A stretch of 62,089 bases of DNA, from positions 1 to 62,089 of the forward strand of contig JADHVR010000011.1 in NCBI GenBank assembly GCA_016783885.1, written 5' to 3'. The DNA comes from Bacteroidales bacterium. Lineage in GTDB: Bacteria > Bacteroidota > Bacteroidia > Bacteroidales > JAADJA01. Shown one piece after another: positions 10,276-18,878 of this stretch. The notes beneath the pieces were generated by a model. It saw only the letters and a program-made list of their open reading frames with translations, was not told where the DNA came from and searched no databases. Both the position numbers and the translations under genes were made by a program. Each line of letters starts with the position of its first letter. The stretch's first letter is position 1.

Positions 10276-10593
10276 GTGACACAATTGGAAATTGAAGGTA
10301 AAGTATTTAACGTTGACGGTGATGGTTTTTTAGTTAACCCTCAACTCTGGAATGAAGAAATAGCAGCTCTTTTCGCTAAACACGACGGCACAGGGCAGCT
10401 TAATGAAAAACATTGGGCAATAATTAACTTTATAAGAAATCACTGGCTCGAAAATGATATGGCACCAATGGTCAGGAAGATATGCCAAAATACAGGGTTA
10501 AGATTAAAAGAAATTTATACTCTATTTCCAATGGGCCCGGCAAAAGGTGCCTGTAAAATAGCAGGTTTGCCAAAACCTGACGGTTGTGTATAA
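10276..10593 (+). CDS. dsrC: DsrC sulfur-carrier protein with both redox cysteines
   Basis: A 105-residue DsrC/TusE-family protein. The C-terminal arm reads GACKIAGLPKPDGCV, with cysteines at 93 and 104 when counted from the GTG at 10276, the same positions as the two redox cysteines of sulfate-reducer DsrC. TusE-type relatives keep only the last one. In DsrC the two cysteines carry sulfur as a persulfide or trisulfide and are reduced by DsrMK. I chose GTG 10276 because the residues before it (from a TTG at 10219) are AT-rich and unlike the family, and because the family begins with an xxEIEGK strand. The stop is 11 bases before the dsrM-like gene. No dsrAB is in the window, so the substrate is unknown. 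Confidence 0.9.
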   Translation: MTQLEIEGKVFNVDGDGFLVNPQLWNEEIAALFAKHDGTGQLNEKHWAIINFIRNHWLENDMAPMVRKICQNTGLRLKEIYTLFPMGPAKGACKIAGLPKPDGCV

Positions 10594-10604
10594 AATATAG
10601 TATC

Positions 10605-11222
10605 ATGACAATATTTCACTGGATTCTTTTAGCAGGATTTGTAATATGCCTGTTATCATGTTTATATCATTTTTTCATGGCATTACCTGCTGGTAAAGAT
10701 ATTGATTATGCAACTCCTGATGCAAAAACAAGGCAAGCTGTTGTATACTCCTTTACAAAAGCTATGTCACCCAAAAAAAAGGAGACAGCATTTATGCACC
10801 TGCCAACATATACTGCAGGAATTTTTTATCATTTAGGCACATTTCTTTCTCTGTTTTTGGTAATATTTATTTTTTTTAATGTTAGTTTTCCTACATGGTT
10901 GGCATATTCAATAATTGTTTTTCTTGCATTCACAAGTATATGTGGATTGTCCATCCTTATAAAGAGAATGACAAGCTCCCTGTTAAAAAATTTATCAAAT
11001 CCTGATGATTATTTTAGTAATATCCTGGTAACAGGATTTCAGATTATTACAGCTATCTATTTATTGCTAAATACCGGATTGGAGTATTACTTCATTATAA
11101 CCACAATTTTGTTTCTATATCTTCCAATAGGGAAATTAAGACATACAATATATTTCTTCACAGCACGTCTTCATTTAGGTATCTTTTATGGCAGAAGAGG
11201 TACATGGCCGGTGAAAAAGTAA
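10605..11222 (+). CDS. dsrM: DsrM-like membrane subunit (NarI-type cytochrome b fold)
   Basis: A 205-residue protein with about five to six membrane helices. Histidines fall in helices or at their ends (FHW, LYHFFM, MHLPTYTAGIFYHLG, LRHTIYF, RLHLGIFYGRRG), consistent with bis-histidine haem b ligation. The KLRHTIYFFTARLHLGIFYGRRG-type ending resembles the C-terminus of DsrM and NarI relatives. It would take electrons from menaquinol and pass them to the DsrK-like partner. ATG 10605 is preferred over a TTG at 10584 that lies inside the dsrC coding end. The stop (11220-11222) is 5 bases before the next start. The subunit name rests on context plus pattern, not on strong identity. Confidence 0.75.
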   Translation: MTIFHWILLAGFVICLLSCLYHFFMALPAGKDIDYATPDAKTRQAVVYSFTKAMSPKKKETAFMHLPTYTAGIFYHLGTFLSLFLVIFIFFNVSFPTWLAYSIIVFLAFTSICGLSILIKRMTSSLLKNLSNPDDYFSNILVTGFQIITAIYLLLNTGLEYYFIITTILFLYLPIGKLRHTIYFFTARLHLGIFYGRRGTWPVKK

Positions 11223-11227
11223 TTATT

Positions 11228-12541
11228 ATGGCTAAAAATAATTCATTAACCGAGAAACAAAAAAAAGCACTAAAGCTTCTCAAAAGCAGATTAAACGGCA
11301 GGTTATTAACCCACCTGAACAGCTGTGTTCATTGTGGTTTATGTGGTGAATCCTGTCATTATTATCTTGCTACTAAAAATAAAAATTTTATTCCCGGGAA
11401 GAAGGTGGATATTGTTTCAAGTATTTACCAACGCTATCACACATTAGCCGGAAAAGTAGCACCCAGGCTTTATGGTGCTAAAGACTTTAATGATAAGACG
11501 GTTGAAGAATTAATAGATATAGTTTTCGGAGCTTGTTCTATGTGCGGTCGTTGTTCTGTTCATTGTTCCATTGGAGTAGATGTACCATATATTGTCCGTA
11601 CAGCCCGTTCAATGCTTGTTGAAATGGAACTGGTTTCGCCGGGATTACAATCTACTGTTGATGCAGCTATCAATACCGGAAATAATATGGGCATTCCGCG
11701 TGATGAGTTTGTTGATACTCTTGAATGGCTTTCTGAAGACCTTGAGATGGAAGTAGAGGATGAAGATGCTTCAATCCCTTTGGATAAAAAAGGTGTTGAT
11801 ATATTATATACGCTAAATCCCAGAGAGCCTAAATTCTTTCCGCTCTCTATAAGTGCAATAGCCAAAATCTATTATGCAGCAAAAGAAAACTGGACTCTTT
11901 CTACCAATGTTTATGATGTTACAAATTATGCCTATTTTTCAGGGGATGATAAAGGAGCTAAAGAGCTTACTGAAAGACTTTGTGATGAAATGTCAAAACT
12001 TGAAGCAAAAACTCTTGTTTTGGCTGAATGTGGCCATGGTTACAGGGCAATCAGATGGGAAGGTCCAAACTGGATAGAAAGACCATATCCTTTTAAGGTT
12101 ATCTCTGTTGTTGAACTAATTGGAGATTATATTCGTTCCTGCCGTATAAAACTTGATCCATCACTAAATAAATTACCTGTTACCCTGCATGATCCATGTA
12201 ACATGGTAAGGGGCGGTGGTGTAATTGAAGTGCAAAGATTTGTCATAAAGAATGCTGTTGAGAATTTCATTGAAATGATGCCAAACCGCGCAAACAACTT
12301 CTGTTGTGGTGGCGGCGGCGGTCAGCTTGCAATGAGTGAATATGCCGAAAGAAGAATTAAATCCGGTAAAATAAAAGCAGATCAAATCCGTAAAACCGGT
12401 GCCAAAATAGTAGCTACTCCATGCCATAACTGTATTGACCAGCTTATGGAATTAAACAAGGAATACCAGTTGGGTGTTGAAATCAAGACAATTGGAGAAC
12501 TGGTTGCAGATGCATTAGTTCTGGAAGAAAAATCAAATTAA
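11228..12541 (+). CDS. dsrK: DsrK/HdrD-like iron-sulfur heterodisulfide reductase subunit
   Basis: A 437-residue protein. Two ferredoxin-type cluster motifs lie near the N-terminus, CVHCGLCGESCHY and CSMCGRCSVHCSI, each CxxCxxCxxxC followed by a hydrophobic run. The C-terminal half has one CCG domain (HDPCNMVRGGG, NNFCCGGGGGQL, TPCHNC), which in HdrB/HdrD and DsrK holds the special 4Fe-4S cluster where disulfide is reduced. Together with DsrM it would reduce the Cys93-Cys104 disulfide or trisulfide of DsrC at the cytoplasmic face. ATG 11228 is preferred; an in-frame ATG at 11204 overlaps the upstream gene. No DsrJ, DsrO or DsrP is seen, so this is the minimal MK form. Confidence 0.85.
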   Translation: MAKNNSLTEKQKKALKLLKSRLNGRLLTHLNSCVHCGLCGESCHYYLATKNKNFIPGKKVDIVSSIYQRYHTLAGKVAPRLYGAKDFNDKTVEELIDIVFGACSMCGRCSVHCSIGVDVPYIVRTARSMLVEMELVSPGLQSTVDAAINTGNNMGIPRDEFVDTLEWLSEDLEMEVEDEDASIPLDKKGVDILYTLNPREPKFFPLSISAIAKIYYAAKENWTLSTNVYDVTNYAYFSGDDKGAKELTERLCDEMSKLEAKTLVLAECGHGYRAIRWEGPNWIERPYPFKVISVVELIGDYIRSCRIKLDPSLNKLPVTLHDPCNMVRGGGVIEVQRFVIKNAVENFIEMMPNRANNFCCGGGGGQLAMSEYAERRIKSGKIKADQIRKTGAKIVATPCHNCIDQLMELNKEYQLGVEIKTIGELVADALVLEEKSN

Positions 12542-12602: not shown

Positions 12603-13763
12603 TTATCTTTTTATTTCTGCTATTTCACTTATTGCATCAATTGCAGCATCCACATGTTCTTCAGTTGTAAATGCACCAAGGCTCAATCTTACTGTTCCGT
12701 GAATTTTATCAGTACCCAATTGTACATGTACTTTTGGAGCACATTGCAATCCTGTTCTACTGGCGATATTATAATCAACATCAAGTATAGTACCAACATC
12801 ACCGGCTTCCCAGCCATCAATATTACAACTTAGAACCGCATTCTGATTCTCAATATCATTGGCACAATAGGTTATTACACCTTCAATATTTTGAATTCCT
12901 TTCCTGAGCCTGTCCCATAACAAAATTTCTCTCTCGTGGATATTATTTATTCCTTCTTTCAATATCCATTTCACACCGGCATTAAGACCGGCAACTCCAA
13001 CAATATTCAAGGTTCCGCACTCCATACGATATGGAAATTCCTCAAGATGGAATGGATATGCTGACTTTACACCGGTACCTCCAAAACGAGTACCTTTAAT
13101 ATTCACACCTTCTTTAATATATGATCCACCTATACCTGTTGGGCCCATTAAACATTTATGACCGGTAAATACAACAACGTCAATATTCATTGCTTCAATA
13201 TCAATATCAATTATACCGGCAGTCTGGCTTGCATCAACAGCAAAAGGTATTCCTGCCTCGTTACAATACTTTCCAACCTGAGCAATTGGCTGAACAGTAC
13301 CAATAATATTCGAACCGTGATTTATGATTACAAGACTGGTATTACTTTTAAATGCCTTTTTTATATCATCCGGATCAATATAACCCTTATTATCAAAAGG
13401 AATATATGTAACCTCTATCTCCCCATCGTGCATCTTATGATACAGCGGTCTAAGCACAGAATTATGCTCAAGGTTTGTTGTAATTACATGGTCACCTTTT
13501 GAAGTCATCCCCTGAATAATCATATTTAGCGTATCGCTGGCATTATAACTAAATGTCAGTCGGTTAGGATCAGTTCCATTAAAAAAGTCTGTTAATAATT
13601 TTCTGGTTTCATGTACAACCTCTTCAGTTTCAATAGCTGCATCAAATCCTGAACGGCCGGGATTTACGCCATGCTTCTGATAAAACTCATGCATAAAATC
13701 ATATACTTCCTTTGGCTTTGGAAAAGAAGTTGCTCCGTTGTCTAAGTAAATTAATTTATTCAT
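12603..13763 (-). CDS. Cysteine desulfurase (class V aminotransferase fold)
   Basis: A 386-residue PLP enzyme of the NifS/SufS group. It opens with YLDNGATSFPKP, has the PLP lysine in VVFTGHKCLMGPTG (Lys203) and a catalytic-type cysteine in SRTGLQCAP (Cys341), and ends with the LSLGAFTTEEHVDAAI motif. It would take sulfur from cysteine as a protein persulfide. The length and the short loop around Cys341 fit the subgroup often annotated as cysteine desulfurase family protein rather than housekeeping IscS. It converges on the dsrK-like gene with 61 bases between, so it may give persulfide sulfur to DsrC. That link is inference from position; it is on the opposite strand and not in the same transcript. 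Confidence 0.88.
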   Translation of the reverse strand: MNKLIYLDNGATSFPKPKEVYDFMHEFYQKHGVNPGRSGFDAAIETEEVVHETRKLLTDFFNGTDPNRLTFSYNASDTLNMIIQGMTSKGDHVITTNLEHNSVLRPLYHKMHDGEIEVTYIPFDNKGYIDPDDIKKAFKSNTSLVIINHGSNIIGTVQPIAQVGKYCNEAGIPFAVDASQTAGIIDIDIEAMNIDVVVFTGHKCLMGPTGIGGSYIKEGVNIKGTRFGGTGVKSAYPFHLEEFPYRMECGTLNIVGVAGLNAGVKWILKEGINNIHEREILLWDRLRKGIQNIEGVITYCANDIENQNAVLSCNIDGWEAGDVGTILDVDYNIASRTGLQCAPKVHVQLGTDKIHGTVRLSLGAFTTEEHVDAAIDAISEIAEIKR

Positions 13764-14023: not shown

Positions 14024-15052
14024 ATGAAAACAAAAGAAGTTTTAGGAGTATTATTAATTTTATTAGGATTATCATCCTGTATTACTAAAGACAATGAAAA
14101 ATTTGCATTAAAAGAGATTGCATCGTCAAAGGGTCTATGGACAGGTATTGCGATTAGTGGGAAAGATAGAATATTTGTTAATTTCCCCAGATGGTCTGAA
14201 AATGTTCCTATATCTGTAGGTGAACTAAAAGATGTGGAAATAGTCCCATATCCTAATAATGATTTTAATAATCCGGCTATTGGTTTTAATTGCATTCAGA
14301 GTGTTTTTGTTGATCGCAATGATATACTATGGGTACTTGAAACAAATAATCCTATGTTTATGGGTGTTAAAGATCCAGGACCTGCCTTGTACAAATTTGA
14401 TTTGTCAAAAGACTCACTGATAAAAAAATATAATTTTGATTCAACTACCTTTTTGTCCAATTCTTACTTTAATGACGTCCGGATTGATGAAGTAAAAGAA
14501 GTGGCGTATATCACAGATTCAGGTACAGGTGCCATCATAACTCTTGATTTGCAAACAGGAGAATGCAAAAGGCTTTTGGCAAATCATTATTCTACCAAAG
14601 CCGAGAGAAATTATTTAATTATAAACTCCAAAAAATGGTCAAATACTGTTCATTCAGATGGGATTGCTCTTTCTCCTGATAGAGCTTACTTATACTATAT
14701 AGCTCTTACAGGAGACCATTTGTACAGGATTGCGACAAAAGAACTTTTAAATCCAGATTTGTCTGAGGCAGAATTAGAGGAGCATGTTGAAAAGGTAATA
14801 AAAACCGGGCCTGCAGATGGAATGTTATTTAATGAGCAAGGTGATTTATTTATGGCAAATCTTGAGAGCAATTCAGTTATTAAGTTTAACTATCCCAACA
14901 AATTACAAACTGTAGTTAAAGGCAGCCAGATCAAATGGGCTGACAGTTTTTCTAAAGACTCCCAGGGAAATATTTATTTTACAACTTCACAAATTCACTT
15001 GTCAGAAAAGGAACGTTCTGATTATCGTATATATAAAATAGGAGAAAACTAA
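14024..15052 (+). CDS. Yellow/major-royal-jelly-family lipoprotein
   Basis: A 342-residue secreted lipoprotein; the signal ends in a lipobox LLGLSSC (Cys near residue 22). The rest is a six-bladed propeller of the Yellow/MRJP type: KGLWTGIAISGKDRIFVNFPRW, a DILWVLETNNPMFMG blade, YFNDVRIDE, VAYITDSGTGAIITLDL, HSDGIALSPDRAYLYYIALTGDHLYRI and the closing blade with LESNSVIKF. Bacterial members are often labelled L-dopachrome tautomerase-related; the real activity is unknown. It is a single gene followed by a hairpin terminator. It lies 260 bases after the divergent cysteine desulfurase gene, and no functional tie is seen. Confidence 0.88.
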   Translation: MKTKEVLGVLLILLGLSSCITKDNEKFALKEIASSKGLWTGIAISGKDRIFVNFPRWSENVPISVGELKDVEIVPYPNNDFNNPAIGFNCIQSVFVDRNDILWVLETNNPMFMGVKDPGPALYKFDLSKDSLIKKYNFDSTTFLSNSYFNDVRIDEVKEVAYITDSGTGAIITLDLQTGECKRLLANHYSTKAERNYLIINSKKWSNTVHSDGIALSPDRAYLYYIALTGDHLYRIATKELLNPDLSEAELEEHVEKVIKTGPADGMLFNEQGDLFMANLESNSVIKFNYPNKLQTVVKGSQIKWADSFSKDSQGNIYFTTSQIHLSEKERSDYRIYKIGEN

Positions 15053-18236: not shown

Positions 18237-18878
18237 TTATTCTTCATCAATTAAAAACAAATAAAGTTCTTTTGGTCCGTGAGCTCCCATAACAAGTGTT
18301 TTTTCAATATCTGCCGTTCTGCTTGGTCCGGTAATAACCGAAATAAGCGAAGGCATATTATTTATATATTTTTCTTTAATATTTTTTAGTGCATCTTTCA
18401 GATCGGCGACAATCTGTGATGTATAAGCTATAACAATATGATTTTCCGGAAAAACATTCAATCTTCTGCCCGAAGTCTGTCTTGAAGTTATCATTATACT
18501 TCCCAGGCGGGCAATAAGATATTCGCAATAGGTGATACCGGCTTCCATTTTAGTAAAATCCGCTTTTTCACTTTTAAATGGTATTCCTGCATTGTCGAGC
18601 GTTTTTTTTATATCCGGTTCAAGGCAAAAAATGTTTACCCATTTTTTTTCTGCGATTAAGGATATCAGATTATCGTATAATTCTTTTTCATTTTCGCAAT
18701 AAATAAATTTACCTTCAGCTTTAGTAAATTCATGGGCAAATGTAATATCTAAGGTATCTTCAAATTCATGGTAAACTAAAGACTCGATATCAACAGAAGG
18801 ATAAGGATTTTCGGTTTTATTAATCAGGGCATTCCTGATTTTTTTTAAAACTTTTTCTCTCGATGTCGTTTCTTCCAT
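18237..18878 (-). CDS. LUD-domain protein (LutC/YkgG type)
   Basis: A 213-residue protein with the LUD domain of LutC, found in lactate-utilisation iron-sulfur systems. The family features are a helical N-terminus (REKVLKKIRNAL), then a nucleotide-binding-like fold with EAGITYCEYLIARLGSIMI, the VFPENHIVIAYTSQIVADL segment and the ending SVITGPSRTADIEKTLVMGAHGPKELYLFLI. No lutA or lutB lies nearby. In this group of genes, which includes ftsH and cdsA, its role is not known. It is 26 bases downstream of the ftsH stop. Confidence 0.88.
   Translation of the reverse strand: MEETTSREKVLKKIRNALINKTENPYPSVDIESLVYHEFEDTLDITFAHEFTKAEGKFIYCENEKELYDNLISLIAEKKWVNIFCLEPDIKKTLDNAGIPFKSEKADFTKMEAGITYCEYLIARLGSIMITSRQTSGRRLNVFPENHIVIAYTSQIVADLKDALKNIKEKYINNMPSLISVITGPSRTADIEKTLVMGAHGPKELYLFLIDEE

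Follow-up and report, generated by a model that had tools for sequence, protein, structure and literature searches.

A two-cysteine DsrC encoded with a membrane and iron-sulfur subunit pair and a cysteine desulfurase in Bacteroidales genomes lacking a detectable siroheme sulfite reductase

The closest described counterpart of the locus considered here is the DsrC/DsrMK(JOP) system of sulfate and sulfite reducers and of Dsr-type sulfur oxidizers, which combines a two-cysteine DsrC with a membrane subunit and an HdrD-like subunit carrying a CCG domain. DsrMK(JOP) is reported to reduce the DsrC trisulfide with release of sulfide (PMC10504309, PMC6470260); DsrMK without DsrJOP is known in some lineages, as are a few DsrK/DsrM-type proteins in genomes without identified DsrAB (PMC10504309); and the first C-terminal cysteine of DsrC is confined, with few exceptions, to organisms with DsrAB (PMC3397948). 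Here we describe a related set on a contig of a Bacteroidales bacterium (JADHVR010000011.1 of assembly GCA_016783885.1; the whole stretch of 62,089 nucleotides is referred to as the window). Three co-directional, closely spaced genes, dsrC-M-K, occupy positions 10276–12541 and include a two-cysteine DsrC, just as an earlier note made from the sequence had described them; a cysteine desulfurase gene adjoining K at 12603–13763, absent from that note, proves to be the fourth member of the conserved set:

10276..10593, plus strand: dsrC, DsrC-type sulfur carrier (GTG start, 105 amino acids; TIGR03342 and PF04358 above cut-off)
10605..11222, plus strand: M, membrane subunit, HmcE/NarI-like, probable heme b/quinone subunit (205 amino acids)
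11228..12541, plus strand: K, HdrD-like iron-sulfur subunit (437 amino acids; PF02754, PF13183)
12603..13763, minus strand: cysteine desulfurase of the TIGR01977 family (386 amino acids; convergent with K)

Compared with DsrMK(JOP), no siroheme reductase was found here, K falls under the DsrK cut-off, and a desulfurase is the usual neighbor. We read the set as a DsrAB-free, quinone-linked DsrC module that would be fed with sulfane sulfur from cysteine and not with sulfite, a reading that we regard as evenly poised. The observations beneath it are the genes, their fixed residues, their linkage and co-occurrence, and the failure to find a siroheme sulfite reductase. Eleven bases separate dsrC from M (best start ATG 10605, stop 11222), five separate M from K (best start ATG 11228, stop 12541) and 61 separate K from the convergent desulfurase; residue numbering of M and K starts at the second residue. 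A scan for promoters and terminators gave no excess over shuffled sequences.

The carrier scores 105 bits against TIGR03342 (cut-off 53.5) and 117.1 bits against PF04358 (cut-off 24.9), is the only PF04358 match in its genome, and has PDB 2xsj_C as its best solved relative (E 2.8e-30). It fails the TusE equivalog cut-off (69.8 versus 191 bits). Its C-terminal end, GACKIAGLPKPDGCV, holds both Cys93 (codon at 10552) and Cys104 (codon at 10585); a third cysteine, Cys70, is encoded at 10483. When the window DsrC was aligned with 73 others from the 80 loci described below, Cys93 was kept in 73/74 sequences, and Cys104 and Cys70 in 74/74 each. Cys70 is also kept in ten two-cysteine DsrCs of relatives, whereas in a phylum sample its position is Thr in 30/30 sequences of the f19 type (f19 being a family taken for Chlorobi) and Cys in 1/16 others. 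A distinct, one-cysteine DsrC makes up 17 of the 27 DsrC rows aligned from relatives; in the ten such loci retrieved with wide flanks it lies beside SQR-like, DUF1641 and DsrE-type genes, without M or K. At two congener loci (L071, L072), genes for a molybdopterin oxidoreductase, a Fer4_11 protein and NrfD lie close to this SQR-DUF1641-DsrC-DsrE set, an arrangement that is PsrABC-like.

To follow conservation, eight aligned Ks were used to search named genomes; this gave 229 relatives, the best 80 being taken as K loci. Going by record title, most are Bacteroidales/Bacteroidetes, with others from Ignavibacteria, Phycisphaerae, Zixibacteria, Eisenbacteria and Aminicenantes; the sequence of one recorded as Alphaproteobacteria (L136) hardly differs from that of a Bacteroidales row, and the label is probably wrong. 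Within 3 kb of K, M was present in 75/80 loci, DsrC in 73/80, the desulfurase in 65/80 and a small family, fam8, in 29/80, so that the comparison of related neighborhoods advised by the earlier note brings out dsrC, M and K recurring together, joined by the desulfurase. Because these genes recur together in several phyla and the cluster cysteines of K are kept in 81/81 sequences (window plus 80), the dsrC-M-K grouping is not due to chance. The desulfurase lies downstream of K on the same strand in 56 loci, convergent with it, as in the window, in seven, and upstream in two; that it is kept as a neighbor through these changes of orientation suggests selection for its closeness to the cassette. 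Alignments for residue conservation, with score cut-offs applied, comprised 73 DsrC, 76 M, 80 K and 62 desulfurase rows, each with the window sequence added; DsrC rows were dropped or lacking for L083, L085, L112, L119, L131, L152 and L157, and in L160 about 7 kb separate DsrC from K. When the 45 commonest families were compared, the most frequent besides the cassette and fam8 was a second pyridoxal 5′-phosphate (PLP) enzyme, found in 17/80 loci (L120, L121, L122, L128, L134, L138, L145, L147 and others): an Aminotran_5 protein of ~490 amino acids, weakly SufS-like, which lies directly upstream of the two-cysteine dsrC in ten loci. The fam8 proteins (~84 amino acids, several conserved cysteines) precede dsrC in their 29 loci (e.g. 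L064:9496-9750); one member compared with Pfam and two compared with NCBIfam matched nothing; by eye, fam8 was not seen upstream of the window dsrC, an inspection that did not extend to the rest of the genome.

The desulfurase exceeds the TIGR01977 cut-off (425 bits versus 377) and falls below that of the selenocysteine lyase SclA (307.5 of 525). Lys203 and Cys341, which we take from the family motif to be the PLP lysine and the catalytic cysteine, are kept in 63/63 sequences (window plus 62). Nine proteins of the genome match the TIGR01977 model, one of them above cut-off. In a sample of 41 genomes including our own, above-cut-off TIGR01977 proteins occur in seven (G000, G398, G399, G402, G406, G408, G411) and two-cysteine DsrC in eight, namely those seven plus G404, a co-occurrence with a one-sided Fisher probability of 3.6e-7 when kinship is ignored. 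Within the genus (17 genomes, our own and 16 congeners), the desulfurase occurs in six, all among the seven with two-cysteine DsrC (one-sided Fisher 5.7e-4, again ignoring kinship). The set is thus patchy inside one genus, and in G411 dsrC-M, K and the desulfurase are kept on three different contigs.

The family PF01077, which covers DsrA, DsrB, AsrC and CysI, has no match in our genome (a draft, 89.65% complete) or in the 16 congeners, and matched 0/50 cassette genomes sampled from the 80 loci, likewise drafts; the control was positive in 11/14 known genomes. The NrfD family PF03916, to which DsrP belongs, also has no match in our genome. The inference drawn earlier from the window, that the set operates without DsrAB and in a different pathway, is upheld at the level of the genome and of the 50 carriers, and the absence of DsrP at that of the genome; the sulfite route that the earlier note listed among the options is not supported, no siroheme sulfite reductase having been found. 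A distant DsrAB or AsrC as a means of reducing sulfite was rejected on these same searches of genome, genus and cassette genomes. A molybdenum polysulfide or thiosulfate reductase was likewise rejected as a partner in our genome, where the two PF00384 matches look, from their translations, NuoG- or formate-dehydrogenase-type and NrfD is lacking. The rule that DsrAB stands beside a two-cysteine DsrC does not hold in our genome or in the 50 cassette genomes, and the cassette clade looks like a broad exception to it.

The iron-sulfur subunit has the HdrD-like architecture that had been proposed for it: two [4Fe-4S] CxxCxxCxxxC motifs (codons 11324–11566) and an HdrB-type motif, C323-X34-CC-X38-CXXC, in the CCG domain (PF02754; codons 12197–12433), this motif and the eight cluster cysteines being those kept in all 81 sequences. 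Its scores against the TmcB (303.5 bits, cut-off 735), HmcF (302.8, cut-off 750) and DsrK (NF045796; 259, cut-off 400) models all lie below cut-off, and four other cassette Ks show the same pattern, with 229–258 on the DsrK model; K is therefore a separate branch of the DsrK/HmcF/TmcB/HdrD family. A DsrK-like protein of another genome (G357, L198) scores 304 on the DsrK model, likewise below cut-off, and two f19 DsrKs reach 715 and 718. Among 26 aligned rows, those two f19 DsrKs have Asp in place of the last motif cysteine (CxxD), whereas the cassette K has CxxC. A glycolate- or lactate-type identity, which the earlier note had named as fatal to its interpretation, is ruled out by the model scores (LdhH 56.5 bits, GlcF 18.8 bits). 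The names DsrM and DsrK are nevertheless too strong, since K reaches 259 of 400 bits on DsrK with TmcB and HmcF slightly higher, and the only named match of M is HmcE. As a whole, the earlier interpretation thus survives in its DsrAB-free set and different pathway and gives way in its sulfite route and its nomenclature. The HmcEF/TmcBC complexes of sulfate reducers resemble the pair in just these matches; they differ in that their cut-offs are far from reached and that the cassette here contains DsrC and a desulfurase. The structure model of K (mean predicted local distance difference test, pLDDT, 88.6; residues 360–367 in the CCG region below 50) matches the folds of EtfD (9ojn, the best, E 9.7e-13), LutA and HdrB. 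EtfD and the methanogen HdrB/HdrD proteins share the fold and the CCG motif with K; here, by comparison, there are two genes, and DsrC would be the probable partner instead of ETF or the heterodisulfide CoM-S-S-CoB. In a quick K tree of 88 sequences, built without HmcF/TmcB sequences, with three outgroup rows on very long branches and 23/85 inner branches drawn open, the window K groups with sequences from Planctomycetota, Zixibacteria and Eisenbacteria in a set of 19 rows (Shimodaira–Hasegawa-like approximate likelihood ratio test, SH-aLRT, 98), and the Ks of congeners G406 and G398 fall outside it. This placement can be explained by transfer or ancient paralogy, and some bins may also contain foreign contigs.

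M has no Pfam match, no PDB match by sequence up to E 1, and a single, weak NCBIfam match, to HmcE (E 3e-5; 23.7 of 275 bits). Its AlphaFold2 model (pLDDT 92.6) is helical, and the top eight Foldseek matches are all NarI chains, at low significance (E 0.13–0.29; template modeling score 0.39–0.47), with EtfD weaker still (E 2.0). The NarI label is thus a lean drawn from a weak structural match. Histidines 75 and 179 are kept in 75/77 and 77/77 rows, and three further histidines in 51–71/77.

Candidate sources of sulfane sulfur also occur elsewhere in the genome. The search for tusA and rhodanese genes suggested in the earlier note finds both: the two TusA matches of the genome lie on one contig separate from the window (C147, L183), together with a Crp-like regulator, a YedE-type PF04143 transporter, three rhodanese genes, DsrE, DsrE2, FlpD and, truncated where the contig stops, an HdrA/QmoA-like gene. 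The desulfurase and this YedE/TusA/DsrE/HdrA cluster, both missed by the earlier note, point to sulfane sulfur. The joint presence of yedE, tusA and dsrE recalls the YTD cluster, made up of these three genes, that sulfur disproportionators and cable bacteria carry; it differs in being joined to the three rhodanese genes and to FlpD-HdrA/Qmo-like genes. Of the phyla studied in PMC12998232, Desulfobacterota and Nitrospirota are the only ones reported to have complete YTD. In the nearest named relative (L081, genome G473; K 76% identical) the order is shared, on another contig, and continues past the point at which our contig stops to a QmoC-like gene (212.5 bits, below the QmoC cut-off of 300), and in 7/80 named loci DsrE2-TusA-FlpD-HdrA-HdrA comes immediately after the cassette in the same orientation. 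Of 34 genomes, 25 gave a match to an HdrA query at E 1e-30, in many cases only to distant paralogues. On a further contig (C111, L218), FlpD and HdrA/HdrC-like genes accompany genes of the hydrogenase large-subunit-like and Oxidored_q6 types, an assembly that appears Mvh-Hdr-like.

From these parts a three-step scheme can be proposed. The desulfurase would take sulfur from cysteine and load Cys104 of DsrC as a persulfide, directly or via TusA/DsrE; a precedent in vitro is the persulfuration of A. vinosum DsrC at its penultimate cysteine by IscS and cysteine (PMC3397948, section 7). The TusA, DsrE and YedE-type genes of the other contig could also supply sulfane sulfur from outside. By the known chemistry of DsrC, Cys93 would then attack the persulfide, releasing H2S and leaving a Cys93–Cys104 disulfide, or the sulfur may be held as a trisulfide. 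Judging by homology, M-K would finally pass electrons between menaquinol, heme b in M and the HdrB-type cluster of K, regenerating reduced DsrC, so that the net reaction would convert persulfide sulfur and quinol to H2S. The front end resembles the Escherichia coli Tus relay (IscS, TusA, TusBCD, TusE), in which a desulfurase likewise feeds a carrier of the DsrC/TusE family (PMC3397948); here, in contrast, the DsrC has two cysteines, a membrane complex with an HdrB-type subunit is present, and the desulfurase belongs to a different family. The direction of electron flow is not settled; we favor the reductive one, from menaquinol to H2S, because the searches turned up no enzyme for oxidizing bound sulfur and because record titles place some carriers in probably anoxic settings.

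In the opposite direction, proposed for sulfur oxidizers, K would oxidize the thiols or persulfide of DsrC and M would deliver the electrons to menaquinone, the bound sulfur passing to an unnamed acceptor. Textbook potentials make the step from thiol to menaquinone a downhill one, the genome has YedE-type, TusA and DsrE-type genes, 5/80 loci have SQR-like genes upstream of their cassette, and a model for cable bacteria has YeeE, TusA and DsrEFH type II feeding DsrC while DsrMKJ reduces quinone (PMC13293266). We nonetheless think this direction unlikely, though a serious competitor: neither DsrAB nor another siroheme enzyme was found that could oxidize bound sulfur, and the titles of some carriers suggest a digester or rumen origin (Go_SlDig, Yak_Rumen), probably anaerobic. 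The latter point is weakened by the yak-rumen K itself, around which neither DsrC nor M nor the desulfurase lies within 3 kb. Still less probable, in our judgment, is a biosynthetic or protective relay in which the desulfurase and DsrC serve tRNA thiolation, Fe-S or other cofactor assembly, or the handling of reactive sulfur, and M-K merely keeps DsrC reduced. The E. coli homologue TusE does work with IscS in tRNA thiolation (PMC3397948), and patchy presence inside one genus suits an accessory function, but the DsrC here has both redox cysteines and misses the TusE equivalog cut-off, the other TIGR01977-model matches put further desulfurase-like enzymes on hand, and patchiness together with the cross-phylum placement of K is ill-suited to an essential modification.

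The fold match of K to EtfD, and TmcB and HmcF scores slightly above that for DsrK, would fit M-K as an EtfD- or Hmc/Tmc-like quinone oxidoreductase with another redox partner and DsrC as a regulator. We hold this to be very improbable, as a separate EtfD-like protein is encoded beside EtfAB and an acyl-CoA dehydrogenase elsewhere in the genome (C150), DsrC accompanies K within 3 kb in 73 of the 80 loci, and among the 45 commonest families none outside the cassette and fam8 exceeds 17 of them. The element handled might finally be selenium, with the desulfurase acting as a selenocysteine-lyase-like enzyme and YedE and TusA-like proteins moving selenium. Proteins of the TIGR01977 family occur in selenium gene clusters, and the YedE-type protein reaches 120.7 of the 350 bits required by the selenium model YedE/FdhT and 92.4 of the 400 required by TsuA, a thiosulfate transporter; with the SclA cut-off missed by the desulfurase, we give this explanation hardly any credence.

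Several points weigh against a sulfane-sulfur-fed, menaquinol-driven DsrC module. Menaquinol is a weak reductant for S0 or a disulfide by textbook potentials, so that the reductive direction may need membrane energy, and our genome offers no NrfD partner (PF03916). The association is incomplete: within 3 kb of K the desulfurase is missing from 15/80 loci, DsrC from seven and M from five, contig edges affecting one, two and one of these, respectively. G402 has DsrC and the desulfurase with no close K, and G404 has an altered DsrC tail, no close K and no above-cut-off desulfurase. At the G404 locus (L065), fam8-dsrC stands without M, K or desulfurase in 19.8 kb and the tail is altered to ...KPFTCD; this DsrC is perhaps a decaying or reassigned copy. 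The HdrA query found nothing in 9/34 genomes, seven of them K carriers, and the HdrA part is therefore accessory. PF01077 matched one of the 41 genomes in the search of relatives and is missing from the other 40, cassette or not, all of them drafts, so its lack could partly reflect lineages without assimilatory sulfate reduction. Sulfur transfer, the direction of electron flow and energy yield are, moreover, proposals read here from the genes.

Two neighbors in the window are noted in passing. The plus-strand gene at 14024–15052 encodes a major royal jelly protein domain (PF03022, E 1.3e-21), and there is a LUD-domain (LutC-like) protein (PF02589) at 18237–18878 on the minus strand, adjoining a gene that reads as ftsH.

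Among the matches listed in the full-text literature, which leaves subscription journals largely outside, a DsrC-M-K-TIGR01977 set without sulfite reductase is undescribed. A two-cysteine DsrC is kept with a desulfurase in several phyla, and siroheme sulfite reductase was not found in 50 carriers. More tentatively, and with considerable doubt, we suggest a distinct, widespread sulfidogenesis free of sulfite reductase, in which the DsrC persulfide would be the terminal acceptor of a menaquinol-linked M-K, the cysteine desulfurase would be dedicated to this route, and sulfur from cysteine or TusA/DsrE would be respired to H2S by uncultured Bacteroidales, Ignavibacteria and members of other phyla. 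If the module acts as proposed, genome surveys that rely on dsrAB as a marker would miss a sulfide-producing or sulfur-oxidizing route, and the cassette would separate the DsrC/membrane half of the Dsr pathway from its sulfite reductase half, allowing the former to be tested alone.

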